Notes under the pieces: model-generated
The model's database searches: none
Told to the model about the DNA's origin: nothing
Seen by the model: only the letters and a program-made list of their open reading frames with translations
Program-made: the position numbers and the translations under genes
Virus record (IMG/VR): IMGVR_UViG_3300030099_004074
Location: 1 to 27,179 of that record
Direction: 5' to 3' (one strand)
Origin: a virus
Length of the DNA stretch: 27,179 nucleotides
Shown: piece by piece, positions 1 to 20,543 of the stretch
Layout of the letters: the number at the start of each line of letters is the position of its first letter
Position numbering within the stretch: position 1 is the first letter of the stretch

Positions 1-3000
1 CCTTTTCTGCCTTCAAATATTCTTTGATACATCTGTTCATAGCTATTATAACCTTGATTTGATATTTCATTTTGTATAGATGATATCATGCCTTGCTTTG
101 CATTTTTTGGAAATGGTAATATCAAGCAAGTGTCAATAGTATCATTATCTTTATAATTATATGTTTTAGGTGAATCAGTCGATGGATATGTTTTTGTATC
201 GTCTGGGTGAACTCCAAGATTCCAATTATCCATATAAATTGCTGATTTACTTATAGGTACATAATTTCCAGGCCTTAACTCAAACGTATCAGCTTGTATA
301 AATGTGTGTAAATCTTGTGGACTTAATGTAAATGAAAATGACTCTGCAAATGTTTGAATCATTGAAATATTAGCTAAATCATCTTCATTTAATTCATAGC
401 TCCAATCTGTATCTAATTGTTTTATTATAGGGTCATTATAATCTATAGGGCCTAATAGAGCATTAAATAATAAATTATAAACCTCATAAATTAAACAAGA
501 ATTGTCAAAATTTATATCTAACAATGGCACCATAGGAATACCTGTACCAAAATCAAAATCATAATTGTTACTACCTCCACCATATGGAGCTTCATCTATT
601 AATAAATAATTATCATTTGTAAAAAAGTCTTTTGAACCTTTGTTTGGATTTGGATATACACATGTTCCATTATCTATTGTAGCTAGTGGATTATAATTTT
701 CAGCATTTGGGTCCGTACATCCTGTAATTGGACCTGGTCCAAATTCACATGTGCCATCATCTATATTAGCTGCAGGATTATAATTTAAGGCAGATTCATT
801 TGTACATCCAGTGACATCATAATTACAACTACCATCATCTATGGTAGCAGCTTCGTTATAGTTGTTAGCAGATGGATTTGTGCATCCATAAATTTCAAAC
901 TGGTCTTGATTAAAAGTCATATCATGTAACTGGGTTGCCTTTAGTTTCACTTTATCAAGGCCATAAGTAATGTCATGTATTACAAACATTGGATAAATTT
1001 GCTGTCCATTTCTAATTACAGGTCCATCTGTACTCAAACCAGTAATAGTTATATTTTCACCATAAGGTTTTTCCCCATCCAATGTTTCCAAATCTTGAAA
1101 AGCTATTATACTGCCCAGTTCCAGTTTAACAAACTTTGCAGGTAGCTCTAAAATTACGATATTGTGTTGATTGTAATTCCACATTAAATGATTTTGTCTT
1201 TGTAGTAATGCCGTATTTTCATCTGCTACATGCAAGCTAGATATTGTTTTTTTATAAACTTCTTTAGATTCATCTGTCAAATCGCCATAAATGCTTTCAT
1301 CGGTATAATCAAATACCTCATCAAAAGATAAATACCCTGTTTCTGCTAAAAATATTTTTCTTCCAGGTTCATACCTATATTGATAATTTACCTCTAATGT
1401 AACATCTTCTATGGGAGTTCTGTCAAATGAAACTTTTAATATTTCACCTCTTTTAAATATATAATCAACATCTGTTATCTGATATGACTGTTTTATTGAT
1501 TTAAATTTTAAAATATTGTTTTCATTGAAATAATAATAATATTCTGTATCTGTCAAAAGAGTTGATAAAAGAGAATTAAATGGTACTGGCCTATCAATAT
1601 AACACCTAGTATTATATGTATTTGGATTGTTTGTAGAAAATGTATCTATATACTCTAAATATCCTAATTCTAAATTACTTAATGAAAAATTTTGACCAAT
1701 AACCTCATTGTGCATTATATCTCTAATTTGATTTATAGGACTATTGTCATTATTTGATATTGTTTTTCTTCCTTTAACTCCATTTACGTAAAACTGTTTA
1801 CCATGGACCCCTGGCATATATGCTACAGCTTCAACCTCAAAATCAATTATTTCTATATTTATAGGCTGTGTAATATTCCATATTTGACCTTCTGCATAAT
1901 CATTACCAGCATGTATACCATATGAAAATTGAAAATTTGGTAGTGTCGCATCAGTGTACTGTGCAACCCAAACACCAGCGCTATCTAAAACTCCTTGTAT
2001 ATAATCTTGTGCATCCCCTGGTGGAATATTAATAAGTTCTCCACACCCCCAATGCTGTGGTGTAATTTCTAGTTCTATGGCAGGCCATGGATTATCTACC
2101 CATGAACCTAAAAACTTATTAACGGTATATATATATTCACCTGTATATCTTTCGTTTTCAAAAGTTGGTATTGTGTCTGCATAAACACCACCATTTTCAT
2201 TAAATATAGGATTTTCACCTTCCCCTACAAAAGAACCAGACTGTGCTAAATCAACAAGATTTTCATAATGCGCATACCATGCTTGACCTGATGTATTTTC
2301 TTCAGGATTACCACCACCATTATAAACATCTGCACCCTCATATTGAGTATAATCCCAAGGATTAATCCCTCGCATACCGAATCTTAAACCTCTATATGGT
2401 CCATTTGTTGTTTGTGCTAAAGCTGAATTATGTCCAGTTGATTCTCTTGGTGTCAAAAATGCACTTAACCCATCAGTAGCTAAACCTGCTGTCACCATAC
2501 TTTCAATATTAGATAAAATTGGATTTGATTGGCTTTCTGTGCCTATTTCTGATATTTTAATTTTATATTTTACTCTTACCCCATTAGCTAGTGTGCTAGC
2601 CAGTCCAGCAATAGGAATTATTACAGAATACCCCTCTCTTCTACAAGAAAATGTACCAACTTGACCATTCTGTGAATCATAATGATATATAGCAAAATCA
2701 CCAATTTCGTTTGGATTACTACCCAATAAATCAACAATACCACCAATCATTTGAGGACCCTCGTAAGACATACTTAAATTAAGTGGAGCATCCCATTTAA
2801 TAGTTTTGTTTTGGTCCCACTCCTGGTCTACAAGTAATACGTCTGCTTTTTTCACATCTTCCCAAAAAGGATTATCCTCTCTAAAACCATAACCCTTTCT
2901 GATATGAGGATGCTGTTCCTTTCTGTGTCGATTTGGGTCCTGAACAACATCATCTCTTTGTATTAGATTAGAAAATTGCACACCTGGCAAAACTTGATAA

Positions 3001-4100
3001 GTTCCTTGCAGTAATTGTTGTAATTGGTCTGCATTTAAATCATAATCATCAGTTCCGATATATGATTCTGCCAATGACCTAGAAAATGAAAAAAGCTGCA
3101 ATCCTTCCCCATACAATAATCCTGAATATATATAAAAATATTGTACAGCTCCCTTCATGTCTACCACTTCCTCACTATCTATGCCATCTTCTACTCCAAA
3201 CTGTGGTATCTGTGTATATGCAAAACTTTCTGTATCAAGTAAAAATATCCAACTGATTTTTTGATTTTGATTTGGGTCGTTTATAAACTGTGTATTAATT
3301 GTTGGTAAATATTGCTGGAACTCTGAATCCCAATATCTATCAACACGTAAAGCAAAATCCTCATCTAAATTAAAAGGTACCATATCTTGGCCAAAATCTC
3401 CATATATAATAGGTGAGTATTTACCTCTTTGATTTGACCTATATATACCTTCTGATGGAAATTTATATCCTGATGGTATATCAGCATCATTTAATATTTG
3501 TTTTGTTAATAATGCCTCTGCTTTGTCCTCTAATGTTATTGATACGGTATCCCTATTATGTTTAAATCTGGTAATTTTTCTCTGTGTTACTAAACCTGCT
3601 CTTCTTGTATCATCAGATGTTATACCTAAAAAGTCTGTTTGGTTAGTTACTATATATATAGAACACATTTTATTAATAATGTTTTTTTCGTTTAAAACAT
3701 CCATAAATGTTTTACCATTATATAAATAATTTGATAGGTCTAATTGTACTGTTGAGCTTTTAAAATTTTTTTCTACTAAATCAATACTGTTTGAAATGGT
3801 AGGAAATGACTTTAAATATGGTAATGCTCTTTTAACTATTTCTGTATCATCATTACTAGCATGATTAAGCATGTAATCTTCATACGTTTCAAACCTTTGA
3901 CTTGCTACCTCTATTGTATATTCTTTTGGAGCAGTTGATATAAGTAAAAAATTTTTATTTAATGCAGTTTCTGGGTCATTGTCATATAATGGTATATATC
4001 TATTTGGTTGAGGTCCAAACGTGTGCTCTGATATTACTAATACAATATCTAGTGCAGGATTATTTTCTAATGTTTTTTCAAAGGTTGGTGTTAATATCAT
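1..4100 (-). CDS. Giant tail-tip / central hub protein, C-terminus outside window
   Basis: An uninterrupted minus-strand frame runs from an ATG at 4098-4100 to the window edge, 1366 codons with no stop; I checked every row. It starts three bases after the tape-measure stop, the usual place for the distal tail or tail-tip hub of long-tailed phages. The first ~230 residues (segments such as VQLDLSNYLYNG and DTVSITLEDKAEALL) look like a hub beta-domain. The middle is beta-rich, aromatic and Asn/Gly-rich. Residues 1072-1147 hold three copies of a 21-residue Cys/Asp repeat, followed by more than 200 further residues before the edge. By position and size it should form the tail tip and probably carry receptor contacts; no catalytic motif was recognised. 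Ribosome binding is weak, so translational coupling to the tape-measure gene is likely. Tail location is well supported, exact role is inference. Confidence 0.72.
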   Translation of the reverse strand, partial: MILTPTFEKTLENNPALDIVLVISEHTFGPQPNRYIPLYDNDPETALNKNFLLISTAPKEYTIEVASQRFETYEDYMLNHASNDDTEIVKRALPYLKSFPTISNSIDLVEKNFKSSTVQLDLSNYLYNGKTFMDVLNEKNIINKMCSIYIVTNQTDFLGITSDDTRRAGLVTQRKITRFKHNRDTVSITLEDKAEALLTKQILNDADIPSGYKFPSEGIYRSNQRGKYSPIIYGDFGQDMVPFNLDEDFALRVDRYWDSEFQQYLPTINTQFINDPNQNQKISWIFLLDTESFAYTQIPQFGVEDGIDSEEVVDMKGAVQYFYIYSGLLYGEGLQLFSFSRSLAESYIGTDDYDLNADQLQQLLQGTYQVLPGVQFSNLIQRDDVVQDPNRHRKEQHPHIRKGYGFREDNPFWEDVKKADVLLVDQEWDQNKTIKWDAPLNLSMSYEGPQMIGGIVDLLGSNPNEIGDFAIYHYDSQNGQVGTFSCRREGYSVIIPIAGLASTLANGVRVKYKIKISEIGTESQSNPILSNIESMVTAGLATDGLSAFLTPRESTGHNSALAQTTNGPYRGLRFGMRGINPWDYTQYEGADVYNGGGNPEENTSGQAWYAHYENLVDLAQSGSFVGEGENPIFNENGGVYADTIPTFENERYTGEYIYTVNKFLGSWVDNPWPAIELEITPQHWGCGELINIPPGDAQDYIQGVLDSAGVWVAQYTDATLPNFQFSYGIHAGNDYAEGQIWNITQPINIEIIDFEVEAVAYMPGVHGKQFYVNGVKGRKTISNNDNSPINQIRDIMHNEVIGQNFSLSNLELGYLEYIDTFSTNNPNTYNTRCYIDRPVPFNSLLSTLLTDTEYYYYFNENNILKFKSIKQSYQITDVDYIFKRGEILKVSFDRTPIEDVTLEVNYQYRYEPGRKIFLAETGYLSFDEVFDYTDESIYGDLTDESKEVYKKTISSLHVADENTALLQRQNHLMWNYNQHNIVILELPAKFVKLELGSIIAFQDLETLDGEKPYGENITITGLSTDGPVIRNGQQIYPMFVIHDITYGLDKVKLKATQLHDMTFNQDQFEIYGCTNPSANNYNEAATIDDGSCNYDVTGCTNESALNYNPAANIDDGTCEFGPGPITGCTDPNAENYNPLATIDNGTCVYPNPNKGSKDFFTNDNYLLIDEAPYGGGSNNYDFDFGTGIPMVPLLDINFDNSCLIYEVYNLLFNALLGPIDYNDPIIKQLDTDWSYELNEDDLANISMIQTFAESFSFTLSPQDLHTFIQADTFELRPGNYVPISKSAIYMDNWNLGVHPDDTKTYPSTDSPKTYNYKDNDTIDTCLILPFPKNAKQGMISSIQNEISNQGYNSYEQMYQRIFEGRK
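660..887 (-). repeat. Three 21-residue GCT-NYN-A-IDDG-C protein repeats
   Basis: Inside the tail-tip protein, residues 1072-1092, 1098-1118 and 1127-1147 fit one pattern: G-C-T-[ND]-x-x-A-x-N-Y-N-x-x-A-x-I-D-[DN]-G-[ST]-C. Each copy is exactly 21 residues, with linkers of 5 and 8 residues. The copies have diverged at DNA level, so this is an old protein repeat and not a recent duplication. Each unit starts and ends with cysteine and has an Asp-rich turn, which suggests a small disulfide-closed, perhaps calcium-binding module. Similar units are known to me from surface proteins of marine Bacteroidota and other marine genomes; that comparison is from memory. Confidence 0.9.
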
Positions 4101-4103
4101 AAT

Positions 4104-7100
4104 TTAACCAATTAAACTGTATAGTCTTCTGTGTGATTTAGGTAAAACATGATGTCCTTTTCTAACCCCTTCTCTTATAGCTGGTATAAGTACATCAATA
4201 ACATGCTCATCAACCAGTGGAGCCTCTACTTTAACTTCCACATTTACAGTATTTCCAGCACCCCCACCGTTATTCATATTATCAAACATTTGTCTTCCAA
4301 ATGTATCTACGGCTGACCTGTTCATAACAAACTCACCACCTTCAAGCTCTGCAGGCACACCACCCTGTGAATGACTTGGACCTTGCACATATCCACCATC
4401 TTGAAATGATGTGGTAAAACTTGTCCCTGTGGTTGTCATTTGTGGATTTACTTGTTGTACTTTTGCGCTTTGTAATTTTTGTATCTGATTATCCAGGTTT
4501 TTAAGTTGAACAGCACCATTAGCTGCTACAGTTGCAGCTATTCCTACACCTGCAGGAAATCCAGCTTCGTATGCTCTGGCCATACCTGTTAGGATACCTG
4601 CCTTTGCAATAAATTTCATCTGCTTGATGGCATCTATTCTAGTCTTTTTAGATTCTTTTTCGTTGCCTGCAATAGATTGTAAATAGGTACCTGCTGCGCC
4701 CATTAACGCATTAGCTACATTTACTGCCATCATTACTCTTTGCTTGTTGTAAAATCTATCTATATCTTTTTTCTTTTCATGAAAATCTTTATGACCTTCT
4801 AGCTCTTTTAATTGCAGCTCATGTTCTGCATTTAGCCTTGCAAGTTCATTTGTATTTGTTTGCTCCATAAAACTTTGATGAAACTCATCTGCAAATTGAT
4901 GCTGTAACTCTGCTTGTTCTGCAGCAAATTCTTTATCAAATACCATTTTTATTGCCACCTCAGGTGACATGCCTTGCTCATCTATAAATTGTTGTATTGC
5001 ATCAATCTGTTCGCTTGTTATATCTGGCATGTTAAACGCCAGGTTTAATGCAAGTTTATCACCTACTCCCATATCTGTAAGTCTTGTAAGATTATCTTGT
5101 ATTTGTTGAATTGTATTCTCATCAAAATTTACATCAAATGCTAAATTTACTGCCTGCTCTGGGTCTATACCGTTAAAAGCTGCTATAATATCTTTTATAT
5201 TTTGTATTGTTGTTTCATTAGTAAGATTGCTATCATCTTGCGCATCTTTCATTATAGCATATTTAATTGCTGTATCTGTTAATGCTTTATTTAATTCTTC
5301 TTTTTGTTCTTGTACTTGCTGGGCATAGAATATTGTTTTTTTACCTTGTCGTTCTTCCTCGGTCCCTGCATTTATAATATTATTTATTATTTCATCTAGT
5401 GAGTCACCACGTTTTGCTGAGGCCATAGCAGCCTCTAATTCAGACCTTGTTATATTATCTATAATACCTATGCGCCTGGCTTCAATTAAGGCCAAATCAG
5501 CCTGTTTTTCCTGCTTATCTGTTAATTTTTTATTATGCTTTTCTTCTAGGTCTGTAATTCTTTTTATGCTTTTTTCAAAATCATTTAATAATTCTATTTG
5601 ATTTCTTTCTTCAACGCTAAGATTATTATACGCCTCTATTTTTTCTTGTAATGTTACTATCTGGGTCCTGTCAGATGCAATTTGTGCCTCTGTAGTTTCA
5701 ATTATATTTTTACCCTGCTGCACATTGTTTTTAAATTCTTCAGTTCCTTCGCTAAGACTAGCATTAAAAAAGTTACTAATTTCCGTAACATCTTTTAACT
5801 TTTCACCCATCTGACCTGCTACACTTGAGTTTCTAGCTGCAGCATTAGCCGTTTTATTTAGTTCTTCTCCTACTAGGCTTAAAAATTTATTTAATTCATC
5901 TAAATTATCAGCCAAAGTCCCTTCACCAATAGACTTATCTATTGCATCAGTAGATTTTTTTAATTCTTTATTGCTACCAGCATAATTAGTTGAAAATTGT
6001 ATTAAACCTTTTAAATCTTTTACACGTGAATTATATTGATTTGCTAAATTATCTTCAGATTTTAATAATTGCTCGTTTGATTTAATATTGGCTTCATATG
6101 CTTTTATTTGTTTTTTAGCAGCATCCACGCTGTCTGAGGTTAAATTGTTAATATCTATAGTAGACTTTGACAAATCTACCTGAGATATACTCAAACCACT
6201 TTGTGCAGATTTTAATTTTTGCAGCTCTTTTGAATAATCTTTAGTAATTTCTGTTCCATCTTCTGCTGAATTATACCATTTTATTAAAGCTCCTGCTGCA
6301 AGAGCTGCACCTACAGCTAATGCTCCCCATGGTGTTGTTGCAAGCGTTAAATTAAAGCTAATGGTGGCCGTTCTTGCAAACTTCATTGCTGCTGTATATC
6401 CACCAATTAATGCTGGCAAACCTTTCCAAACTCCTGCAAATACGCCTAATTGTACTATATATCTTTTTATATCTTCTATGTCTGTTTCAGATATAAACTC
6501 TGTCATAGCTTGCACTGCAGACCTTAAATCATCTTTAAACTCATCAAATACATCTAACGCTAGACCTTCCAGGGCTGAATTAAATTTATCTAAGTCGCCC
6601 TGTAGAGAATCCATCATAATGCGTTGTTGTTCTTGTGCAAATCCTAATCCACCAAATGCCTCAGATGATTCATTCAATACATCTGTTAAATCTTCTACGT
6701 TGCCTATATTGTCAAATAAAACTTTAAATCCTGCTACGGCTCTTTTGCCTACTAATGCTGCGCCTTCACCTACAGGGTCAAATCCTTCTTTTCTTAGCTT
6801 GTCAAAAGCTATTGCCATTTCCTCTGCACTTTTAACAGGGCCACCTAATTTTTTCGCCAGCTTAGAGCCTTCTGTCCCCATCTCTAACATTATTTTTCTA
6901 AGCTGCGTTCCTGCCATTGAACCTGTAATAGCATTATCATGCAGCTTTCCAAGCATTGCAACAGACTCTTCTAAACTAAATCCTAAACCAGATGCAACAG
7001 GTGCCACGTATGTCAATGAATCGCCCAGAGTAGTCATATTTAAAGCAGAGCTTGCAGTTGCTGCTGCAAATATATCTGTAACGTGTGCTGCCTCAGCCGT

Positions 7101-7568
7101 TTCTAATTGAAACGCTTTCATTGTACTCCCCACCTGCATTGCTGATTCGCCAAGTTCTTGGCCTGTTGCATATGCTAGGGCCTGAGTAGCCTCTGTCATT
7201 CCTATTATTTCATCAGTTCTAAATCCTAATCGTGCAAAATTTTCCTGTAGCTCTGCTATTTCTGATGCAGTGTTTGCTGTAGATGCACCCAAATCTCGTG
7301 CCTGCTGAGATAGAGTTTTTAGCTCGTTAGCAGATGCTCCAGATACAGCTTGTACCCTTTTCATCTGCGCTTCAAAGTCTTTTCCAATTCCTACTACTTT
7401 AGATATAGCAACGCCAGCAACGGCAAATCCTGCCATCGTAGCCATGAGGCCCTTAAATGACCGTTCTGTGGTTTTTACTTGGGTGTCCAGGCCTGCAAGT
7501 TCTGCCTGTGATAATTTAACCCCTTTGGTTTTTAGTAGTATTTGGAGTTGTTGTCTATCTATCGCCAT
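4104..7568 (-). CDS. Tail tape measure protein (TP901-1 core type)
   Basis: This 1154-aa protein sets tail length and helps DNA passage. Residues about 60-230 carry the TP901-type core: a segment on ejectosome-like helices (FEAQMKRVQAVSGAS, then ARDLGASTANTASEIAEL, then SALNMTTLGDSLTYVAP and GSMAGTQLRKIM). Hydrophobic stretches lie near residues 40-60 and 375-430, and long Gln/Lys/Glu-rich coiled coils follow. The C-terminus has the typical motif GGYVQGPSHSQGGVPAELEG followed by GEFVMNRSAVD. Residues about 791-881 hold three internal repeats. Its ATG overlaps the stop of the upstream chaperone extension (TAATG), with AAGGG seven bases before it. Gene order (tube, chaperone pair, tape measure, tip) is the classic siphovirus order. 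No lytic transglycosylase or peptidase domain was noticed. Confidence 0.95.
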   Translation of the reverse strand: MAIDRQQLQILLKTKGVKLSQAELAGLDTQVKTTERSFKGLMATMAGFAVAGVAISKVVGIGKDFEAQMKRVQAVSGASANELKTLSQQARDLGASTANTASEIAELQENFARLGFRTDEIIGMTEATQALAYATGQELGESAMQVGSTMKAFQLETAEAAHVTDIFAAATASSALNMTTLGDSLTYVAPVASGLGFSLEESVAMLGKLHDNAITGSMAGTQLRKIMLEMGTEGSKLAKKLGGPVKSAEEMAIAFDKLRKEGFDPVGEGAALVGKRAVAGFKVLFDNIGNVEDLTDVLNESSEAFGGLGFAQEQQRIMMDSLQGDLDKFNSALEGLALDVFDEFKDDLRSAVQAMTEFISETDIEDIKRYIVQLGVFAGVWKGLPALIGGYTAAMKFARTATISFNLTLATTPWGALAVGAALAAGALIKWYNSAEDGTEITKDYSKELQKLKSAQSGLSISQVDLSKSTIDINNLTSDSVDAAKKQIKAYEANIKSNEQLLKSEDNLANQYNSRVKDLKGLIQFSTNYAGSNKELKKSTDAIDKSIGEGTLADNLDELNKFLSLVGEELNKTANAAARNSSVAGQMGEKLKDVTEISNFFNASLSEGTEEFKNNVQQGKNIIETTEAQIASDRTQIVTLQEKIEAYNNLSVEERNQIELLNDFEKSIKRITDLEEKHNKKLTDKQEKQADLALIEARRIGIIDNITRSELEAAMASAKRGDSLDEIINNIINAGTEEERQGKKTIFYAQQVQEQKEELNKALTDTAIKYAIMKDAQDDSNLTNETTIQNIKDIIAAFNGIDPEQAVNLAFDVNFDENTIQQIQDNLTRLTDMGVGDKLALNLAFNMPDITSEQIDAIQQFIDEQGMSPEVAIKMVFDKEFAAEQAELQHQFADEFHQSFMEQTNTNELARLNAEHELQLKELEGHKDFHEKKKDIDRFYNKQRVMMAVNVANALMGAAGTYLQSIAGNEKESKKTRIDAIKQMKFIAKAGILTGMARAYEAGFPAGVGIAATVAANGAVQLKNLDNQIQKLQSAKVQQVNPQMTTTGTSFTTSFQDGGYVQGPSHSQGGVPAELEGGEFVMNRSAVDTFGRQMFDNMNNGGGAGNTVNVEVKVEAPLVDEHVIDVLIPAIREGVRKGHHVLPKSHRRLYSLIG
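4926..5198 (-). repeat. Three degenerate ~30-residue repeats in tape measure
   Basis: Residues about 791-881 of the tape measure contain three units with the pattern I-x-x-I followed, 12-20 residues later, by A-[VLI]-[NK]-[LM]-[AV]-F-[DN]: the tails read AVNLAFDVNF, ALNLAFNMPD and AIKMVFDKEF. The units are similar at protein level only. They may be copies of a helix-strand unit that adjusted tail length. Confidence 0.6.
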
Positions 7569-8035
7569 TAGTTGCCCTTCTTCTTAGCTTTTTTCTTTTG
7601 CTCTTTATCGTACTGCTTTTGTTTTATTTTATTTCTAGTTTGCATCGCATTGTAGATTATAAAATAATAGTCTGTCCATTTTTTTGGCTGGTCCCCATAT
7701 GAGCCTTTATATGGTGCTATTCCAGTTTCTTTGCAGTAGATAAACATATCTATCATCTTTTGCATTTTAGGGTCTATAAAGACGTTTTTACATGCAAAAA
7801 AGGGTAATGAGTGATACATATCTTCAGCTATATCACCATTACCCTGGGAGTTGCGTTTTAAATCTTCTTCAAGCATAGCATAATATTTCCAGACATCATC
7901 TACATTGTTAAATGTAACTTTAGGATATTTTTTATTCTTGTCTAATATTATACTTTTTACGGTGTATGGAAATTTATGTAGCCTGCAACCCATACACACA
8001 CCATCAATTAAGACGTTGAGGGTGAGGCTGGCTGC
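7568..8035 (-). CDS. Tail assembly chaperone, -1 frameshift extension (GT-like)
   Basis: This frame encodes 155 residues and is open across the slippery heptamer at 8035-8041. I see no independent start: the only initiator-like codons are a GTG at 7999 and an ATG at 7993, neither with a Shine-Dalgarno sequence, and the frame is the -1 frame of the upstream gene. A -1 shift would give a fusion of about 256 residues (101 from the upstream gene plus 155). This matches lambda gpG/gpGT, in which a minority product carries a T domain that binds the tape measure. The domain is rich in Lys, Tyr and Phe (DVWKYYAMLEEDLKR; KKWTDYYFIIYNAM) and ends in a basic tail, KEQKKKAKKKGN. It lies directly between the chaperone and tape-measure genes, where such extensions sit. 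Confidence 0.8.
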   Translation of the reverse strand, partial: AASLTLNVLIDGVCMGCRLHKFPYTVKSIILDKNKKYPKVTFNNVDDVWKYYAMLEEDLKRNSQGNGDIAEDMYHSLPFFACKNVFIDPKMQKMIDMFIYCKETGIAPYKGSYGDQPKKWTDYYFIIYNAMQTRNKIKQKQYDKEQKKKAKKKGN

Positions 8036-8337
8036 TTTTTTCTTGTAACTACTTGAGCTGCTTGAATTAAATCAGATGCTTCCTGTTTATCTTCATCTGT
8101 TAATTGTTTAAGCGCAGAATCTGGTGGCATTTCACCATTAACTGCTTTCCAATCACCTATTCCTGACAGTCCTGCTCTTAGCCATTTAGTTCTTGTTTTA
8201 TTAACATTTTTTATGCTTGATGGCTGCCCATCTGCAAAAGTAATGTCTATAGAATCCCTGCAATCATCCATTTCATCTATAGACATATCTTTAATAGTAA
8301 TAGTTATACCACTTTTTAAGGTTTTTATTTCTGCCAT
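8008..8337 (-). CDS. Tail assembly chaperone (G-like)
   Basis: A 109-aa protein starting at an ATG with GAGGGA seven bases upstream. It lies between the tail tube and tape measure genes, has the typical length for gpG-like chaperones, and ends just after a slippery heptamer that lets ribosomes continue in the -1 frame. The N-terminal half is beta-like (IKTLKSGITITIKDMSIDEM), followed by a helical part and a Pro/Ser tail (KKQPASPSTS). It should coat the tape measure before tube polymerisation. Sequence similarity to a named family was not recognised; the call rests on position, length and the frameshift. Confidence 0.8.
   Translation of the reverse strand: MAEIKTLKSGITITIKDMSIDEMDDCRDSIDITFADGQPSSIKNVNKTRTKWLRAGLSGIGDWKAVNGEMPPDSALKQLTDEDKQEASDLIQAAQVVTRKKQPASPSTS
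8035..8041 (-). promoter_or_regulatory. Programmed -1 frameshift slippery site A AAA AAG
   Basis: On the coding strand the upstream gene reads AGA AAA AAG CAG here, so the heptamer A AAA AAG is exactly in the X XXY YYZ register used for -1 slippage. The zero frame stops 24 bases further on (8008-8010), and the -1 frame is open from 8071 through 7568. No stem-loop was folded by hand downstream. Confidence 0.85.
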
Positions 8338-8349
8338 TTTATCCCTCGT

Positions 8350-9393
8350 TTATGTTATCTTTAAATCAATTAATGCACCTGCACCTTCTGCAGTTCCAAT
8401 AAATGGTAGTTCAATATACACTCCATCTTCTGCAGCATAATCTTTATTGTATCCTGTGAATTTAGCTGCTGGTATACCAATAAAGCATGTGGCAGCACCT
8501 ACTGCAGCATCTCCAAAGATTATAGCTGTCGATGTACCATTTAGCCAGTTATCTAATAATCCTCGTGAGTTATCGTCATATTTAACTGTCATTGAACCTT
8601 CAACAGTTATATTTCCTGCCCTCACATAGGCATCTGGCTGTCCAAATACTGTTCCTGTTGAACCTGGTGCAGCCTCGGCAATACCTTGATGTCCTGCTCT
8701 TGCTACTGGGTTTGTAATGGTTACAGAAAATGATTTACATATAACTGCGTTTCCACCTATAGAAACATTATCCATTTCAAATATGTTTTGATGACCACCA
8801 TAGGATGAAACTTCTGTATCAGCAATAGTTATGCTAGAGTTATCATATTGAATGGGTCTATAGCCACCAAAAAAAGTTCCTGATGTTGTTAGTTTACCAC
8901 CATTGGTCCCTGCATCCATTGATAATGTTAGTGAATCGCAAATTGCGCTATACATATACCTACCTTTAGCTGCATCTGGATTTTGAATTTGTAGAGCTAA
9001 ATCAAAATTATTAGCAGCATTGTATGAATATGAATTTGTTGCTGCTGTGCCTGCAACAGCTACTGCGCCAGTTACGTCTGCTACCTCTATATTACTTGTC
9101 AATAGCGCATGGAGCAAACCTTCATTTTCTGGTATATAGTTATCCCATCCCCATGTGTATGAACCCCCTGCAGTATTTGTAGCAGAATGAGATGTTACGT
9201 AATCTGTTGGCCTTAATACTCTTTGCCCTAATCGTTGTATTTGCGTGGAGTTATCTGCCCCACTAAAATCTATATCGTTTACAGTATCTAGTCGCATGTG
9301 ATACATTGTACCTGCCACCGTTGCAATTCCGAAATTGCTTGTGTGGAGTCCTACTGCGACCTTATACTCTCTTCCTGAATATGTTACAGCCAT
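8350..9393 (-). CDS. Major tail tube protein
   Basis: A 347-aa beta-rich, Gly/Ala/Thr-rich protein starting after a strong AAAGGGG ribosome site. It lies upstream of the chaperone pair and tape measure, where the tail tube subunit belongs, and its composition fits an abundant virion protein. Features: N-terminal GREYKVAVGLHTSNFGIATV, a central SLTMDAGTNGGKLTTSGTFFGG-like strand pair near residues 153-175, and a C-terminal VYIELPFIGTAEGAGALIDL strand. It is longer than minimal tube proteins (about 150-250 aa), so one part may be an outward Ig-like or decoration domain. Sheath is an unlikely alternative because no separate tube gene is present. Confidence 0.72.
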   Translation of the reverse strand: MAVTYSGREYKVAVGLHTSNFGIATVAGTMYHMRLDTVNDIDFSGADNSTQIQRLGQRVLRPTDYVTSHSATNTAGGSYTWGWDNYIPENEGLLHALLTSNIEVADVTGAVAVAGTAATNSYSYNAANNFDLALQIQNPDAAKGRYMYSAICDSLTLSMDAGTNGGKLTTSGTFFGGYRPIQYDNSSITIADTEVSSYGGHQNIFEMDNVSIGGNAVICKSFSVTITNPVARAGHQGIAEAAPGSTGTVFGQPDAYVRAGNITVEGSMTVKYDDNSRGLLDNWLNGTSTAIIFGDAAVGAATCFIGIPAAKFTGYNKDYAAEDGVYIELPFIGTAEGAGALIDLKIT

Positions 9394-9406
9394 TTGTTAT
9401 CCCCTT

Positions 9407-9604
9407 TTAATTAGCTTTTTCAATAAAGTTTTCATTTAATGCCATCTTAGCATCTGATGGCTCAATTTTAATAGTGCCACCCTCTAATATTGTCTTATAA
9501 TTTGCAGGACCTAAACCCCAAAAATTATTTTGTGTATTACATTGTTCAAAATTACTGCCCATTTTGTATGCAATTTTTGTGCTTTTTTCTTCTTTTTTAG
9601 CCAT
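9407..9604 (-). CDS. Small hypothetical protein between tube and terminator genes
   Basis: A 65-aa protein, unrecognised. I start it at the ATG at 9602-9604 and not four codons earlier (9616), because GGAG lies six bases before the inner ATG and actually overlaps the outer one. The protein begins MAKKEEKSTKIAYKMG and has an acidic C-terminal half with an IKIEPSDAKMAL segment. The N-terminal lysines and the short size resemble small structural accessory proteins, but nothing shows a function. Confidence 0.6.
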   Translation of the reverse strand: MAKKEEKSTKIAYKMGSNFEQCNTQNNFWGLGPANYKTILEGGTIKIEPSDAKMALNENFIEKAN

Positions 9605-9634
9605 TTTTTGCTCCATATATTGTGTTTAAGTTAA

Positions 9635-10084
9635 TTACTGTCTACTAATAATACAAGAAAATAGAAAATTCACTGCCATTAAATCTTCTGTTACATTTTC
9701 AAACTCTATTTCTTCTACCTGGCCCTCAATCCATGATATGACATTCGCATCATTTCCTGCATCCTTGGCATGGTTGTTTGTTAGTATCTGATTTGTTCTT
9801 TCCATTTCTCTGTACATATATTCATAATCATATTCTTTAGGATTTCGTACAGAATTATATTGCACAATATCTACAAATATTCTTCTTGAAAATGTTGTAT
9901 TTGAGTATAAGGATACAAATTCATTTCTTGTACTAAATATTCTAATACTAAAATCTTCAGATTGCTGCATAAAAAAGGGAGAAATGTATATTGGACTAGG
10001 ATTATACTGTTCTCGTAATATTTGCCTAATAGGCAGCAATACGTCATTATATGTTATATTTGAGTAATCTGTGGTCTTTGCCAT
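9635..10084 (-). CDS. Probable tail terminator protein
   Basis: A 149-aa protein that overlaps the stop region of the connector gene by one base (10084). Position between head-tail connector and tail tube, and length near 150 residues, match tail terminators, which cap the tail tube and bind the head. It begins with a helix (TYNDVLLPIRQILREQY) followed by strands (SPIYISPFFM; DFSIRIFSTR; RRIFVDIVQYN), a helix-rich middle (DYEYMYREMERTNQIL) and a final strand pair (VEEIEFENVTEDLM), an alpha/beta order typical of this fold. Ribosome binding by AAGGA or the more distant GGAG. No specific signature residue is known to me; the call is by context and predicted fold. Confidence 0.55.
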   Translation of the reverse strand: MAKTTDYSNITYNDVLLPIRQILREQYNPSPIYISPFFMQQSEDFSIRIFSTRNEFVSLYSNTTFSRRIFVDIVQYNSVRNPKEYDYEYMYREMERTNQILTNNHAKDAGNDANVISWIEGQVEEIEFENVTEDLMAVNFLFSCIISRQ

Positions 10085-11325
10085 TATCCTTGAAATCTCC
10101 TAGTCATTCTAATACTTCCCATTTGTGTATTGGTCGCATCTATACCATACCCATGAAGTTCTATTTCATATTCATCTAAATCCGTTGTTACGGCAGTTGC
10201 CACATCATCACCACCCCATCGTATCTCTAAACTACCTACGCCTAATTCTTGGAATCTTCCATTTATAGCCTCTGAATCAACAATAATATCTGTTTTTAAG
10301 TTATCTCCATCGCTTGCATATACTGTATATTTTGATGTACCCATAAGGCCACCTTCTCCAGATTCTATTTTAACCTTTAATAGTTCGTAGTCCCTACCAC
10401 CATAATGACCCCTTAATTCTACTGGTCTTAAATCTGAACTAGAGCTTACATTAACTTCTCTTAATACACCCTTACTGCTATCCCTGGTGACTTGATTTGG
10501 TAGTGTCAATGTACCCTCTCTTAAACCTAAAATTATAACATCTAATTCAGATTGAAATATTGGTATTAGTTCACTTGTAGGGTCATTCGCTTTAATCATT
10601 AGTAAAATTGCTTGCAATGATGTTGCTCTCACTATAAAAGTTGGATAGTTGCCTTCTCTGTCTTTCATTATTTCTCTTGTCATTCTGTGGTCCAATAAGG
10701 ATTCTATCATTCTGCTTGCTCTTTTTCTAACATTAGTCGTATATGTTTGAAAATCTATTCCTGCATGCACATCATAGTCTGCAGGATTTAAATTGTCTGT
10801 AATCAACAATGCTTTATCAAGAGCAGCATCATATATAAATGCAGGATTCTCTGATAATGATGATTCATCTGTTACGTCTGCGCTTGCATCATATACTACA
10901 GATACTGACACTCCTGACACATGTGCAATCGCTGTTGTTTTACATACTCCTCTTATAAATGTTACGGTAGAGCCTAATACGTTAGATACGCGCATATATT
11001 CATCTTCTATTTTAATAATATCATTTGCACCTATTTTGCTTGTAGATGTTAAATCTACTGTAGTTGCATCTTCATCTAGTGATGTTGATGTTGTTGTCAC
11101 AGATGATGATGGGAATCCAAGATTTAAACACTTTGCTCTGTCAAAAAATAAATCTGTTACTAATCCTGGTGAGTCAGCAACATACATATCTAAAGTATCT
11201 ACTATATTTGATACTGCTAATGACCACCCTGTAACTTTTACTCTATTATTATATTTTCCAAAATCAGGAAATACATCAAACAAATCTGTATTTTCGCAGT
11301 AGGTTATCGTACTTGTCAATGCCAT
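10084..11325 (-). CDS. Head-tail connector / adaptor-like virion protein with inserted beta module
   Basis: A 413-aa protein. The middle part (about residues 165-275, with IDFQTYTTNVRKRASRMIES and YPTFIVRATSLQAILLMIKA) is helical and resembles connector/adaptor proteins that sit under the portal. Residues about 83-142 form an inserted module with the pattern D-D-I-I-K-I-E-D-E-Y ... T-F-I-R-G ... A-H-x-S-G, which recurs in the 510-aa virion protein nearby. The C-terminal 130 residues are beta-rich (TSKYTVYASDGDNLKTDIIV). It precedes the tail terminator, which fits a head completion role. Ribosome site AGAGGT. It overlaps the start of the preceding basic-protein gene's stop by one base. Alternative: a neck or baseplate protein of unknown class. 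Confidence 0.5.
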   Translation of the reverse strand: MALTSTITYCENTDLFDVFPDFGKYNNRVKVTGWSLAVSNIVDTLDMYVADSPGLVTDLFFDRAKCLNLGFPSSSVTTTSTSLDEDATTVDLTSTSKIGANDIIKIEDEYMRVSNVLGSTVTFIRGVCKTTAIAHVSGVSVSVVYDASADVTDESSLSENPAFIYDAALDKALLITDNLNPADYDVHAGIDFQTYTTNVRKRASRMIESLLDHRMTREIMKDREGNYPTFIVRATSLQAILLMIKANDPTSELIPIFQSELDVIILGLREGTLTLPNQVTRDSSKGVLREVNVSSSSDLRPVELRGHYGGRDYELLKVKIESGEGGLMGTSKYTVYASDGDNLKTDIIVDSEAINGRFQELGVGSLEIRWGGDDVATAVTTDLDEYEIELHGYGIDATNTQMGSIRMTRRFQG

Positions 11326-11570
11326 TATTTACCTCTCATTTTTCTTCTAACTTTTTTTGAATATTTTGCTCTTTGTTTTCCAGCTTTAGTAGCTTTTCTT
11401 TTTTTCCTGTTTTCATATGCTTTTTGAGCAGGTGTCAAACTATCTCTAACTGATTTAGGAAGATACCTTCCTCGTTTGCTTTTTGGTTTTTTCTTATCGC
11501 CCTTGCTTACATAATCCCACTTCTGTTTAGTCCATTTCTTTAAAGACCTTTGTGATTTTTTTAATGCCAT
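11325..11570 (-). CDS. Small highly basic phage protein (81 aa)
   Basis: An 81-aa protein with about 40% Lys plus Arg. It contains SLKKWTKQKWDYVSKG, GRYLPKSVRDSLTPAQKAY and a KKRKATKAGKQ tail, a combination I know from short basic proteins in many marine phages and some algal viruses (S-L-x-K-W-x-x-x-K-W ... GRYLP ... KKR.AT..GKQ). Function is not established; such proteins could bind packaged DNA or belong to the head. Start chosen at the ATG with a perfect GGAGG site; it overlaps the next gene's start by one base and belongs to a run of four tiny basic genes. Confidence 0.8.
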   Translation of the reverse strand: MALKKSQRSLKKWTKQKWDYVSKGDKKKPKSKRGRYLPKSVRDSLTPAQKAYENRKKRKATKAGKQRAKYSKKVRRKMRGK

Positions 11571-11773
11571 TACCTATAACCTCCACCAGCAGCTTTATAT
11601 CTTCTTGCTAGCATTTGAGCTTTTCTTGCTGACCATTGCCCTGCCCTTCCACCTTTTGAGCCTCTTTTAATAGCATAAAACAATCTTTTTCTTAATGCAG
11701 GTTTAGTATAATTACCAGCCTCATTTACTCTGCTTTTTGCTCTTTTTTTTCTAGTTGTTTTTTTTCTTGCCAT
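11570..11773 (-). CDS. Small basic protein, NEAGNYTKP...GQWSARKAQ family (67 aa)
   Basis: A 67-aa basic protein with SRVNEAGNYTKPALRKRLF followed by KGGRAGQWSARKAQMLA and a final YKAAGGGYR. This is a recurrent family in marine phage genomes, of unknown function (from memory). I start it at the ATG at 11771-11773: it lies one base after the stop (11775-11777) of the upstream basic gene, consistent with coupled translation, whereas the longer start at 11830 would overlap that gene by 56 bases and add residues that do not resemble the family. Confidence 0.8.
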   Translation of the reverse strand: MARKKTTRKKRAKSRVNEAGNYTKPALRKRLFYAIKRGSKGGRAGQWSARKAQMLARRYKAAGGGYR

Positions 11774-11774
11774 A

Positions 11775-12035
11775 CTACCAAGCCTTACATGACCAATACC
11801 TGGCTTTATATTTTGGGCCAGGATTAGCACAGTTATGTCTTGCCCTAAATGATTTTCTAGCTTTTTTATTTGACTTTCTAATTCTCATTTTTGCATCACC
11901 AAATGGTACTCTTTTTATTTTACCACTTGGCATGCGAACAAAGACTTTTCTTTTTTTCTTACCATATCCAGGTTCACCTTTTCTAATCAAAGATGGCCTG
12001 TTTAATGTGACTTTTCTACCCCTATAAATTGCCAA
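11775..12035 (-). CDS. Small basic protein ending KARYWSCKAW, TTG start (86 aa)
   Basis: An 86-aa basic protein. The C-terminal part (KKARKSFRARHNCANPG, then KYKARYWSCKAW) is a highly recognisable signature found in many marine phages; the two cysteines and the histidine (R-H-N-C ... W-S-C) could bind a metal. The N-terminal part (KGEPGYGKKKRKVFVRMPSG) is also typical. The start is TTG at 12033-12035: an in-frame TAA lies two codons upstream, and a strong AAGGAAGG ribosome site precedes it by six bases, so no ATG start is possible. Function unknown; abundance among phage head genes suggests a DNA-binding or head-interior role (inference). Confidence 0.85.
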   Translation of the reverse strand: MAIYRGRKVTLNRPSLIRKGEPGYGKKKRKVFVRMPSGKIKRVPFGDAKMRIRKSNKKARKSFRARHNCANPGPKYKARYWSCKAW

Positions 12036-12189
12036 GATTTACCTTCCTTTTATGCCTGTCATTTTGTTTCTGTGCCCTTAAATGACTAATAATGCTGAAT
12101 TCGCATTTAAGGCCCAAAATAGACGATTTTAGGGACTTTAAACCCTCTTGCGTATGTTGGGACCTATTTTTAATATTTCTAAGTTTCAT
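12022..12189 (-). CDS. Possible small ORF filling the gap upstream of the basic genes (55 codons)
   Basis: An ATG at 12187-12189 opens a 55-residue frame that ends at a TAG at 12022-12024, overlapping the TTG start of the next gene by 14 bases. It is Lys/Arg-rich (MKLRNIKNRSQH; KQNDRHKRKV), like its neighbours, but has no Shine-Dalgarno sequence and contains a 9-bp inverted repeat. The gap it fills is otherwise without a gene. It may be an untranslated leader; I rate coding as unlikely but not excluded. Confidence 0.2.
   Translation of the reverse strand: MKLRNIKNRSQHTQEGLKSLKSSILGLKCEFSIISHLRAQKQNDRHKRKVNLGNL
12076..12112. repeat. 9-bp inverted repeat in the gap before the basic-protein genes
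   Basis: CCTTAAATG at 12076-12084 pairs exactly with CATTTAAGG at 12104-12112, leaving a 19-base loop. It lies about 40 bases upstream of the TTG start at 12035. There is no following U-run on either strand, so it is not a standard terminator. It could be an operator or a leader-RNA stem. Confidence 0.5.
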
Positions 12190-12246
12190 AACGAGAGTTA
12201 CTTAAATTATTTTTGTAACATACACTATGCCAAAATGTCACTTTTT

Positions 12247-12363
12247 TCATTTTTTTGCGTATCTTCGGCCTGTTAATCCCCTAGAAGATTTCATTTTCTT
12301 TCTACCTTTTTTCATGCTTTTTTTCTTACCTTTTTTCTTGTAAGATTTTCTTCCATATGCCAT
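12247..12363 (-). CDS. Tiny basic protein (38 aa)
   Basis: ATG at 12361-12363 to TGA at 12247-12249 encodes 38 residues, of which about half are Lys or Arg (MAYGRKSYKKKGKKKSMKKG and so on to GLTGRRYAKK). AAAGGG lies eight bases before the ATG, a convincing ribosome site, and the gene sits 19 bases after the stop of the 510-aa virion protein gene, at the head of the run of basic genes. Its protamine-like composition suggests nucleic-acid binding in the head or tail, which is inference. It is too short for most gene finders. Confidence 0.7.
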   Translation of the reverse strand: MAYGRKSYKKKGKKKSMKKGRKKMKSSRGLTGRRYAKK

Positions 12364-12382
12364 TTTAGTTACCCTTTATTTT

Positions 12383-13915
12383 TTAATTAAATGCTATTAT
12401 TGAAACTGTTGCATTTCGTTTTGGATTTGTACTTCTTGCTGAAATTGATTGTAGTTGAGATGTTGTTTTTGGCTCACCACTTAAACATGATAATACTTTT
12501 GCAGATATATTAAAGGTTGCATATTTCAATCCATTACGTATTGTAATTGCGCCTGAACTATAATTTATTGTTCCTACTCCTAAATTTGAATTTGGACTTG
12601 TAAGGTTACCAAAACCGTCATCAAATAACATTCCATTTAAATTAGGTTGATTATTATCATCTTTTCCTGGTAATACCTCTGGTGCTAGAACTGATGGCCT
12701 TGCATCATTAGGTGCTGCAGGAAATATGCCCTGCCCAAAAACTTTTGTACCACTATATGATGCTGATTCATTTAAAAGTATTTTTGAGCCATTTGTTCCA
12801 TCATGTGGATACATATGCGATAAAGATTCAAATCTTAACTTTCCTTGTGATATTGTTGCATTAAATGGAAATCCATCTAATCCACCTGAACCTAATTCGC
12901 TTGCAGTTTTGATTGCACTGTTAATTTTTTCTAACACCCCATTCTTACCACCAAATTTTGTATTGCTGCTATCTACAGTAAATGATAATTCTGTTTCTGC
13001 TGAATCATCGATAGTTACTGCAATTGCATATGTATTTCCACCTGTAAGTTTTGTGTCAGTCTGTGGAGTTATGGGGTTTTTAAACGAGATTTCTTGAAAT
13101 GCTCTTTGCGTATAGAATGTCAAAGCCACCGAACCCTTAACAATCCCACCAGTCGCTACATCTCTACCATATCCAAAAAAGTTACTTACCTGAAAATTAC
13201 CTGAGCCATCGGTCATACACACTGCAGAACTTCCATATATTGTTGTAGCTTCATCATAAAGATGATTAAAATGAACAAGCTCAATAGCAGGTGAACTTGT
13301 ATGCGCTGCAGCCGTTGTGCCATGAGCTCCTCTTTCTACTGTAATTGTTGTGCTACCAACATCTTCGACAATCATAACCTCATTATCTACTTTAATTCTA
13401 TCGCCTACAAAAAATACCATATCATTAGGGGTTACAGTTTTAATCGTTGTGTTTGCTATGTTATCGCAATCACTAACTGTTGTAGGTGACTCATTGTCTG
13501 TTTCAGGTGCACCAGTTACTGTAGTAGCATTTGCTGCTGATGTGCTTTCTTCATAGCTCATAGCATGTATACTTGGCATATAACAATACTCTCCTGGCCT
13601 AAATACTTTATGTATTGTTGTGGATGCTAGTGCTGTGCCTGTTGTTTTATCACCACTGTCATCTCTCCAGTTATCATACTTAAATATTATTTCTGCAGCT
13701 TGGTCAGATGTATTATATACAACAAGAGCCTCTGCCCCCTCCATGGACCTGGCAGCTTTTGAACCTGCTGTAAATAATGCTAAATTTATAAAACTATCAC
13801 TATCATCTACTGTTTGCGTGATTTCAAAAATTTCTGTATAGTTAGTAGTTTTTCCATATGAATATCTACCACCTGTATCTGTCGATAATGATAGATTTAC
13901 ATCTAATTTGCTCAT
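12383..13915 (-). CDS. Virion structural protein with Ig-like/beta module (510 aa)
   Basis: A 510-aa beta-rich, Ser/Thr/Asn/Gly-rich protein without a recognised enzyme motif. Residues about 155-213 carry a module (DRIKVDNEVMIVEDVGSTTI, then VERGAHGTTAAAHTSS) that matches the one inserted in the 413-aa connector-like protein. A second part (residues about 290-390) contains SFTVDSSNTKFGGKNGVLEK, a shape seen in head decoration or fibre proteins. It lies between the fibre-like genes and the basic genes, downstream of the capsid and lysis genes. A head fibre, head decoration or tail fibre protein are all possible. Start supported by AAAGGGG seven bases upstream. Confidence 0.6.
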   Translation of the reverse strand: MSKLDVNLSLSTDTGGRYSYGKTTNYTEIFEITQTVDDSDSFINLALFTAGSKAARSMEGAEALVVYNTSDQAAEIIFKYDNWRDDSGDKTTGTALASTTIHKVFRPGEYCYMPSIHAMSYEESTSAANATTVTGAPETDNESPTTVSDCDNIANTTIKTVTPNDMVFFVGDRIKVDNEVMIVEDVGSTTITVERGAHGTTAAAHTSSPAIELVHFNHLYDEATTIYGSSAVCMTDGSGNFQVSNFFGYGRDVATGGIVKGSVALTFYTQRAFQEISFKNPITPQTDTKLTGGNTYAIAVTIDDSAETELSFTVDSSNTKFGGKNGVLEKINSAIKTASELGSGGLDGFPFNATISQGKLRFESLSHMYPHDGTNGSKILLNESASYSGTKVFGQGIFPAAPNDARPSVLAPEVLPGKDDNNQPNLNGMLFDDGFGNLTSPNSNLGVGTINYSSGAITIRNGLKYATFNISAKVLSCLSGEPKTTSQLQSISARSTNPKRNATVSIIAFN

Positions 13916-13925
13916 TTTTTCCCCT

Positions 13926-14696
13926 TTAAGTTATATGATATTTAATATATACTGATGCTGTTATATCGTTGTTAATTGTTGCTCCACCCCTAACACACAT
14001 CAACAATACTTTTCCTGCTGTTACATCTGGTGAGCCAACAGTCATGCTGTGTACATCTGCATCTGCATTATCTATTGTTTGCGATGATGAACTAGCAACA
14101 ACGGCACCTGCTGATAAATCACCTGAGCCTGCTCCTGATGAATCTAATGTAAATGAGTTTAAACTATATTGCAGTGTATCAGTTGAGGCTGAATCATCCC
14201 CCATATGAATTACCTTTATAGCATCTATAGTTATATTATCATGAACATACCAATATTTATTTAAGGCAGTATGTGTTGCTGTGAAAGATGTAGCTGGAGC
14301 TGCATCTGTGCCAAAATTATCATCAGCGCTTGTAATAATACCACCATCAAAAGGTATTGGATACCATGTGTTAGCTACTGCACTTAATTGAAAACAGCGA
14401 AATATTATATATTGCGTATTTGCAAAGTCTTGTGTCTGGTTGACCTTTACGCCTTTATTTGTAGAATCTACTGCAAAAACAGTTGTTCCGTCTTTTATTT
14501 TGGCAGTTATGGCATCTGTTGAATCATTTGCTGATGGCCTCATTATAATTTTATCTTTTGATATTTGTAAAGCTGAGTTACCACCATTTCCATCCTGAAC
14601 TATATTTGGTGTGGTCGTTGGTAAACCTGTATTTGAGTTATTCAAATATAATAAATCTTTAAATGTATCTTTTTTCTTTTTATTAATTAAACTCAT
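13926..14696 (-). CDS. Fibre- or decoration-like virion protein (256 aa)
   Basis: A 256-aa protein, start with AATAAGGAG. The N-terminus is short and basic (LINKKKKDTFKDLLYLNN), followed by SALQISKDKIIMRPSAND, a shape used by trimeric fibre shafts. The C-terminal ~150 residues are Ser/Thr/Asp-rich beta (SSGAGSGDLSAGAVVASSSS; KVLLMCVRGGATINND), similar to a jelly-roll tip. It precedes the 510-aa protein in the operon and follows another fibre-like gene. I infer an external virion protein. No adhesin or enzyme motif is recognised. Confidence 0.5.
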   Translation of the reverse strand: MSLINKKKKDTFKDLLYLNNSNTGLPTTTPNIVQDGNGGNSALQISKDKIIMRPSANDSTDAITAKIKDGTTVFAVDSTNKGVKVNQTQDFANTQYIIFRCFQLSAVANTWYPIPFDGGIITSADDNFGTDAAPATSFTATHTALNKYWYVHDNITIDAIKVIHMGDDSASTDTLQYSLNSFTLDSSGAGSGDLSAGAVVASSSSQTIDNADADVHSMTVGSPDVTAGKVLLMCVRGGATINNDITASVYIKYHIT

Positions 14697-14707
14697 TTTA
14701 CTCCTTA

Positions 14708-15634
14708 TTACCCTTCATATATTGTTGCTGGTAATGCTGTTGCTTTTATAATAAATGGATGATTGCCTTGACCTACTGATGTTCTCCCACCATATTGCAA
14801 GAACGCTGTTTTGGTTTCTCCATTTGTACTAAATGCCACCCAAAATGTGTTTTCACTTCCAATAGCTGCTAAATCGGCTGAATCTAAAACCCATTTAATA
14901 TTTATAACTTCATCATCAGCTTCTCCATCAGAATGAAAAACTCCAACACCATCGTATTCATATTCTTGAGAAAGAGCACTATACCCATCGGTTGCATTTT
15001 GTGTACTCAAGCTTGTTTCTATATGAGTACTTGTTGATGCAACATTAATCAAAGCTGACATTTCTATCTCTACTAATTCACTTGGTGGTGTTTTAAATGT
15101 TATTTTATGTACATCAGATTCCACAGTCATTGAGTTTTGTATTTCAAAAGTTGCTGTACCTGCTGTTGCAGTTAATCTAGTGTAACCAAGTATCATACCA
15201 GCATAAGCACTATTTGCTACACTAAATTCTGTGCCTGCTTTTTTAGCTACAAAATTACCATTATGTGAGTCTAATTCAATACTAGCACCAGAATCTACAA
15301 CAAAGTCATCTGCAATAATTTTATCTAAGCTAGTAATTGTTAAATCTCCACTAGAATATGATACATCTGATAAGTCATCTAATGCTGATGCTCCACCACT
15401 TCCTGTATTTGCATCTACATAGTTTTTATTTACAATTTCGTTTGGATGTACTGGCTCTTTATTGTACATAAAACTTTTATTTGATATTTCTAAAGGCAAT
15501 GTTATATCGTCTACTTTGCTTGGTATAGGGTCATTCTTTAAACCTCCAATAGCCTGGAGGGCCCTGGATTCGAGTTCTTTCACCTTTTTTTCTAAAGATT
15601 TTACTCTCTTAGGTGTTATGGCCTCATAATCCAT
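14708..15634 (-). CDS. Fibre-like virion protein with N-terminal coiled coil (308 aa)
   Basis: A 308-aa protein. I start it at the ATG at 15632-15634, which overlaps the upstream stop as TGATG and has AAGGA six bases before it; the TTG one codon earlier is less likely. Residues 8-30 (KRVKSLEKKVKELESRALQA) form a coiled coil, followed by a KSFMYNKEPVHPNEIVNKNY linker, then beta repeats (DDLSDVSYSSGDLTITSLDK; IIADDFVVDSGASIELD) typical of phage fibre shafts, and a C-terminal beta domain (VFHSDGEADDEVINIKWVLD) that looks like a jelly-roll head. Likely a trimeric fibre or head fibre with a glycan- or surface-binding tip; that is inference. Confidence 0.55.
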   Translation of the reverse strand: MDYEAITPKRVKSLEKKVKELESRALQAIGGLKNDPIPSKVDDITLPLEISNKSFMYNKEPVHPNEIVNKNYVDANTGSGGASALDDLSDVSYSSGDLTITSLDKIIADDFVVDSGASIELDSHNGNFVAKKAGTEFSVANSAYAGMILGYTRLTATAGTATFEIQNSMTVESDVHKITFKTPPSELVEIEMSALINVASTSTHIETSLSTQNATDGYSALSQEYEYDGVGVFHSDGEADDEVINIKWVLDSADLAAIGSENTFWVAFSTNGETKTAFLQYGGRTSVGQGNHPFIIKATALPATIYEG

Positions 15635-15834
15635 CAATCTTCCTTATTAACTTGTTTTTTAAACATTTTTAACATTGCCTTGATGTCTATCTCTAACTGT
15701 TGTATTTTCTCGTCATTTTGCTTTAGCCTTTCTACTACCATTTCTAGCTGCATATCTAGATTGTTTGGTTTTTTAACATAATCTTTTATTTCTTTTGCTG
15801 CTTTCAAAAGTTTTAGAATTGCTACAGGTGACAT
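15634..15834 (-). CDS. Small coiled-coil protein (66 aa)
   Basis: A 66-aa helical, charged protein: a hydrophobic start (SPVAILKLLKAAKEIKDYVK) followed by a heptad-like stretch (LEMVVERLKQNDEKIQQLEI) and a basic tail. It overlaps both neighbours (TAATG with the upstream membrane protein, TGATG with the fibre gene), so it is translated as part of this cassette. It could be an assembly factor, a chaperone for the fibre gene that follows or a helper of the membrane proteins; no family recognised. Confidence 0.5.
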   Translation of the reverse strand: MSPVAILKLLKAAKEIKDYVKKPNNLDMQLEMVVERLKQNDEKIQQLEIDIKAMLKMFKKQVNKED

Positions 15835-16130: not shown

Positions 16131-16142
16131 ATTATCTCCTTT

Positions 16143-17433: not shown

Positions 17434-17450
17434 GAATTTCTCCTGTTTAT

Positions 17451-17477
17451 ATATAGGGGCCTAAAAGGCCCCTATAT
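17451..17477. terminator. Perfect 12-bp hairpin between capsid and next gene
   Basis: ATATAGGGGCCT at 17451-17462 pairs completely with AGGCCCCTATAT at 17466-17477, with a three-base loop. Reading in the direction of the capsid operon (minus), it lies 11 bases beyond the capsid stop and is followed by ATAAACAGGAG, with no U-run, and only 17 bases from the next ATG. It may act as a partial terminator, as an RNA stability or processing stem, or limit expression of genes after the very abundant capsid protein. It is too regular to be chance. Confidence 0.7.
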
Positions 17478-17488
17478 TATTCTATATT

Positions 17489-20542: not shown

Positions 20543-20543
20543 T

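Follow-up and report, generated by a model that had tools for sequence, protein, structure and literature searches.

Small predicted disulfide beads may head an exchangeable, host-facing extension of a siphophage-type tail-tip protein

Introduction

What does a phage gain from placing small cysteine-bounded repeats behind its tail-tip protein, and do such repeats betray its host? The question is raised by an IMG/VR virus record of a marine-type phage, analysed here over 27,179 bases (the window), in which one long ORF carries three 21-residue Cys/Asp units. A preliminary description placed the units in a tail-tip protein, likened them to surface-protein repeats of marine Bacteroidota and other marine organisms, and took them as a hint about the host. 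Here we examine the units, the protein that bears them, and their counterparts in other phages and in cells.

Results

The unit-bearing ORF is likely a tail-tip gene

The ORF that carries the units, P0001, is separated by three bases from the tape-measure gene upstream of it (Table 1), and the order of tape measure followed by tip gene is also kept in many relatives. Pfam and PHROG scans returned no family model that names the window protein itself. PF13550 (Phage-tail_3) matches weakly in 4 of 36 relatives (best E 0.0018) and does not match the window protein. Well-covered relatives have in common an N-terminal stretch and the domain at aa 788-1065. In siphophages the gene next to the tape measure, with its N-terminal stretch and core both conserved, encodes the tail tip, and P0001 is likely such a protein, chiefly from gene order. 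The assignment made in the preliminary description is upheld by this gene order, here and in the relatives, together with the weak PF13550 matches.

Tip relatives were collected through MCP relatives and through unit-bearing loci. Among viral contigs, no close relative of the whole tip protein was found. The locus with an MCP 95% identical to that of the window, an 18-kb contig (L122), gave no tip-protein match, and the 216 visible residues of the distal extension had no homologue among the loci searched.

Table 1. Features of the tail-tip region in the window
Feature	Position	Strand	Residues	Remarks
Tail-tip protein ORF P0001	3..4100	-	1366 aa	3' end cut by contig end
Tape-measure protein	4104..7568	-		PF10145 E 1e-32; phrog_28 E 6e-57; upstream of tail-tip ORF
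Conserved core domain	906..1739	-	788-1065	from alignment; its end, ..QLHDM/L, is the boundary past which relatives diverge
Unit 1	825..887	-	1072-1092	GCTNPSANNYNEAATIDDGSC
Unit 2	747..809	-	1098-1118	GCTNESALNYNPAANIDDGTC
Unit 3	660..722	-	1127-1147	GCTDPNAENYNPLATIDNGTC
Distal extension	3..650	-	1151-1366, continuing past contig end	homologue search: self-match only

The rest of the window has a divergent layout, with the major capsid and tail genes at 3-19113 (-) and the terminase and next head-type genes at 19133-24012 (+). In the latter part, a single ORF at 22531-24012 (+) has a zeta toxin/AAA kinase domain (PF06414, E 5e-18) at its C-terminus, fused to a region with a weak match to Mu F-like minor head proteins (PF04233, E 0.056); the kinase part is also hit by PHROG 16619, 'minor head protein'. 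Three consecutive, very Lys/Arg-rich small ORFs (81, 86 and 86 aa) lie amid the structural genes at 11325-12035 (-), and the two of them that were scanned had no Pfam match. The stretch 16143-17230 (-) contains a phage lysozyme ORF (PF00959, E 4e-7) and, after it, membrane-type ORFs; one of these, 16143-16538, looks like a fragment of a mechanosensitive channel but has no Pfam match.

Three similar units, not freshly duplicated, form the array

The units occupy exactly the positions first described for them (660-887), with 5 and 8 residues between them, and the array spans aa 1072-1147. Pairs of units agree at 16/21, 14/21 and 14/21 residues. By comparison, the best ungapped 21-mer pair in the shuffled protein reached 7-10 identities (100 shuffles). 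The pattern G-C-T...NYN...IDDG.C, which had been assigned to all three units, needs one minor correction: unit 3 reads IDNG in place of IDDG. At the DNA level, 43-46 of 63 bases agree between units, and of the 14-16 residues that are identical, no more than 8-10 have the same codon. This low DNA identity and the few common codons indicate that the copies are old or were independently acquired and do not stem from a fresh duplication.

The units sit in an extension that changes behind a fixed core

The clearest core homologues in cellular genomes stop at the boundary seen in the alignment. Those of two Neomarinimicrobiota genomes (G202 and G203, the latter with two copies) and of one Bacteroidota genome (G490) end 1-7 residues past ..QLHDL; other cellular core matches are weaker or partial. 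The second G203 copy (C8:124436-125191) lies inside a 502-kb contig and the G490 homologue (C1:633580-634200) in a 3.57-Mb contig. Given their place inside large genome contigs, both are apparently prophages.

Viral relatives continue past the core with beads only, with dockerin pairs only, or with both. By Pfam, Dockerin_1 (PF00404) is present in 29 of 34 distinct tails; five tails had been collected because they bear units, two belong to close MCP relatives (L253, L255) and the rest were found by core sequence. The DxNxDG motifs of the tails come in pairs, in most cases at the end of the protein. Counted by eye and with degenerate copies included, a bead is present in 10 of 31 core-found tails. 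In the window, L026 and L094 the units adjoin the end of the core; in L051 and L070 they stand some way from it, and in L079 two beads come after two dockerins. A further module type is seen at the same place in L270 and L273, where Cys-rich CGVCGG-type repeats precede the dockerin pair. For the window, PF00404 matched neither P0001, whose C-terminus is cut off, nor the array, and no dockerin motif was found in any frame.

On a maximum-likelihood tree of the core, the presence of units needs at least three changes on well-supported branches, and six at the fewest; the window itself is a long branch whose placement is unsure. Since the clearest cellular homologues stop at the boundary, viral tails vary beyond it and units were repeatedly gained or lost, the extension behaves as a cassette joined at a fixed boundary. 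The core boundary, the bead and dockerin swaps and the changes on the tree thus bear out the placement of the units in an exchangeable C-terminal extension.

The unit is widespread outside this phage

A degenerate DNA pattern of one unit was searched in viral contigs and in one-per-species genomes, and it returned at least 120 stretches from the former and at least 119 from the latter. The cellular matches listed come mostly from Flavobacteriales, then from Neomarinimicrobiota, Saprospiraceae, marine Euryarchaeota and others. Among the matches listed, 10 of 59 cellular unit-bearing ORFs have a T9SS sorting domain; PKD, LTD, SprB, carbohydrate-binding and further extracellular types of domain are also found in such ORFs. 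Viral unit-bearing ORFs match virion structural proteins, baseplate wedge subunits, tail fibres and the crAss muzzle C-terminal domain. Units of the cyanophages S-CAM3 and ACG-2014j are found in virion structural proteins, encoded beside genes for a short tail fibre and a tail collar. Of 57 'viral' unit-bearing ORFs (loci L002-L121, among the matches listed), 11 likewise have a T9SS secretion sorting domain, a sign that some IMG/VR contigs may be of cellular origin.

Secreted proteins of marine Flavobacteriales, Neomarinimicrobiota and Saprospiraceae thus have the same 21-residue unit, also in arrays. Those proteins are exported, often with a T9SS sorting domain, whereas here the unit is part of a virion protein. 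The likeness to surface-type proteins of marine Bacteroidota and others proved correct, with matches in secreted-protein ORFs of Flavobacteriales, Saprospiraceae and other groups, and the unit is not peculiar to this phage, being found in viral contigs, two cyanophages, bacteria and archaea. This same breadth makes it a poor hint about the host when taken by itself: it spans several bacterial and archaeal phyla as well as cyanophages, so the unit alone names no host. Its use as a Bacteroidota marker was ruled out because its distribution is too wide. The unit is a widespread extracellular module, apparently unnamed so far; the open literature searched yielded no relevant paper about the motif or about phage-tail dockerins, which does not prove that none exists.

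Two invariant cysteines point to a disulfide-closed loop

AlphaFold2, given the window array and 47 related arrays, returned a mean pLDDT of 95 and a pTM of 0.49. The units are predicted to fold as separate small beads whose placement relative to each other is uncertain, as the pTM indicates. The structure prediction proposed as a check on whether the units are independent modules thus came out in favour of independence.

To count cysteines, we used a regular expression blind to them. Cys stands at positions 2 and 21 in 234/234 viral units and 257/257 cellular units (among the matches listed) and in 10/10 units from core-found loci. The viral and cellular sets had been fetched with a cysteine-requiring pattern, which leaves just the further units of each ORF as independent of that pattern; the 10 core-found units are free of this bias. 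Degenerate units without the acidic motif retain both cysteines (L026, L094, L259-L263 and S-CAM3). Because the cysteines are invariant and the acidic DDG varies, the evidence favours a disulfide loop over calcium binding, and the unit would be a loop closed by a Cys2-Cys21 disulfide.

Two known families were considered and rejected. A classical EGF domain needs six cysteines and three disulfides, and each unit has two cysteines. PsaN (PF05479) scores 12.7 bits with the full protein against a cut-off of 21; the isolated 84-aa array scores 23.7, in a match that runs across the boundary between units 2 and 3. The match arises by chance from the way the cysteines are spaced, and it serves as a warning that Pfam can label such arrays 'Photosystem I PsaN'.

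A segment of perforin-2 resembles the unit

A PDB sequence search with the array returned only MPEG1/perforin-2, weakly (E 0.36-0.59). Foldseek likewise returned only MPEG1, over 23-25 columns at 0.6-0.7 A and 48% identity, with a weak E of 2.1-6. VIA-align gave no Z of 2 or more, the unit being too short for significance. The matched segment lies between the MACPF and P2 domains (6u2k, 6u23, 6u2j, 6sb1) and has the same length and pattern as the unit; GCTN..NYN..DDGSC aligns to it in both pattern and spacing, with both cysteines paired. The MACPF-P2 region of perforin-2 has been called a truncated EGF-like domain (PMC6989145). From their position, the matched residues would belong to the MACPF-P2 linker. 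The perforin-2 segment is a single copy in an animal pore-forming protein, whereas the phage has an array of three units. Homology and convergence could each account for the likeness, and these two weak matches do not tell them apart. In either case, a solved animal perforin-2 structure has the same pattern as a unit of bacteria, archaea and phages.

Relatives of the phage lean towards a Neomarinimicrobiota-like host

Genomes of two phyla were compared, the phylum of the samples being known from the centre genomes L132 and L133. Among 120 Neomarinimicrobiota genomes, 25 have units, 71 have dockerin over the cut-off (up to ~49 copies) and 63 have cohesin. In an even sample of Bacteroidota, units are found in 10 of 118 genomes and dockerin in 40 of 118, mostly in one or two copies. 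Two Neomarinimicrobiota genomes, G164 and G190, pair the modules: in their proteins a bead directly precedes a dockerin pair, an arrangement much like that of the phage tails. Within the two phyla, the best MCP relatives are likewise from Neomarinimicrobiota, and three of them lie on a contig that also bears a tail-tip homologue. The tail-tip core was found in 8 of 245 Neomarinimicrobiota genomes vs 1 of 296 Bacteroidota genomes, which were not habitat-matched (Fisher p 0.013); with strong E-values only, the counts are 4 vs 1 (p 0.18), again without habitat matching. The module counts, the paired modules and the MCP relatives favour a Neomarinimicrobiota-like host for the relatives, on counts that are small and against a Bacteroidota sample that is not habitat-matched.

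Discussion

On balance, we lean towards reading the units as disulfide beads that head an exchangeable, host-facing attachment extension behind a siphophage-type tail-tip core. Siphophage tail-tip proteins of the lambda gpJ type have modular C-terminal receptor-binding regions. Like them, the tail-tip family studied here combines a conserved core with a variable C-terminal region and is encoded after the tape measure; unlike them, it has a variable part made of putative disulfide beads and dockerin pairs, and its receptor binding is putative. Dockerin type I (PF00404), present in the tails of relatives and without counterpart in the sequenced part of the window protein, is likewise only a putative binder of cohesin.

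From these features we infer disulfide formation, the geometry of a stalk and a role in attachment. Each bead would be closed by one disulfide between positions 2 and 21, and the beads would be strung at the start of the exchangeable extension, behind the conserved core. Because the bacterial cytoplasm is a reducing environment, the bead disulfides would have to arise after lysis, when the cysteines could oxidise outside the cell. The beads may then make a semi-flexible stalk, resistant to proteases, which keeps the distal, host-facing end clear of the tail tip and probably has a part in attachment. With dockerin type I pairs, beads or both at the same position in relatives, the region behaves as a cassette whose extracellular modules also occur in marine bacterial secretomes. 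This swapping at one spot suggests interchangeable host-attachment parts. Direct contact of the units with a receptor, and their acquisition from this phage's own host, are by comparison speculative.

Other readings of the same features differ in what they ask of the beads. They might be a passive spacer or hinge that only sets how far and how rigidly a distal receptor-binding domain stands from the core, with no host contact. The window, L026 and L094, with units directly at the core end, agree with this, but in L079 the beads come after the dockerins and in L051 and L070 they lie away from the core, so that they are not always at a hinge, and we regard a purely passive role as unlikely. Alternatively, the acidic and Asn residues (NYN, DDG) could bind Ca2+ and make the extension more rigid in sea water. 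Most units do have an acidic, Asn-rich consensus, and the neighbouring dockerin modules are calcium-binding by family. However, degenerate units drop the acidic residues and retain both cysteines, EF-hand and dockerin models gave no match to the units, and a word search of two perforin-2 structure papers did not find calcium. Calcium binding, for which a check had been proposed at the outset, is thus not supported by the variable acidic residues and invariant cysteines, and we consider it very improbable.

A more specific proposal is cohesin-dockerin adsorption, in which the extension docks the virion onto cohesin-bearing host surface proteins and the beads are the linker. It draws on the Dockerin_1 matches in 29 of 34 tails, on the frequency of dockerin, cohesin and units in Neomarinimicrobiota genomes, and on the bead beside a dockerin pair in the G164 and G190 proteins. 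Against it, the window protein, whose C-terminus is cut, shows no dockerin, EF-hand pairs that resemble dockerins are often without a known partner outside cellulosomes, and a cohesin-bearing host of this phage is only putative. That a marine siphophage family attaches through modules of the host secretome, with bead-spaced tail-tip dockerin pairs plugging into host cohesins, is a doubtful idea, and we consider docking of this virion to be distinctly unlikely. If it were true, phage adsorption would exploit the host's own protein-docking system, a new attachment route, and dockerins that bind host cohesins would give a lead to phages of the uncultured Neomarinimicrobiota.

For the preferred reading of a bead-headed attachment extension, the host-facing end of a tail-tip family would consist of swappable beads and dockerins behind a fixed core. 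The bead itself adds a small, apparently unnamed extracellular module, described here from marine bacteria, archaea and phages.
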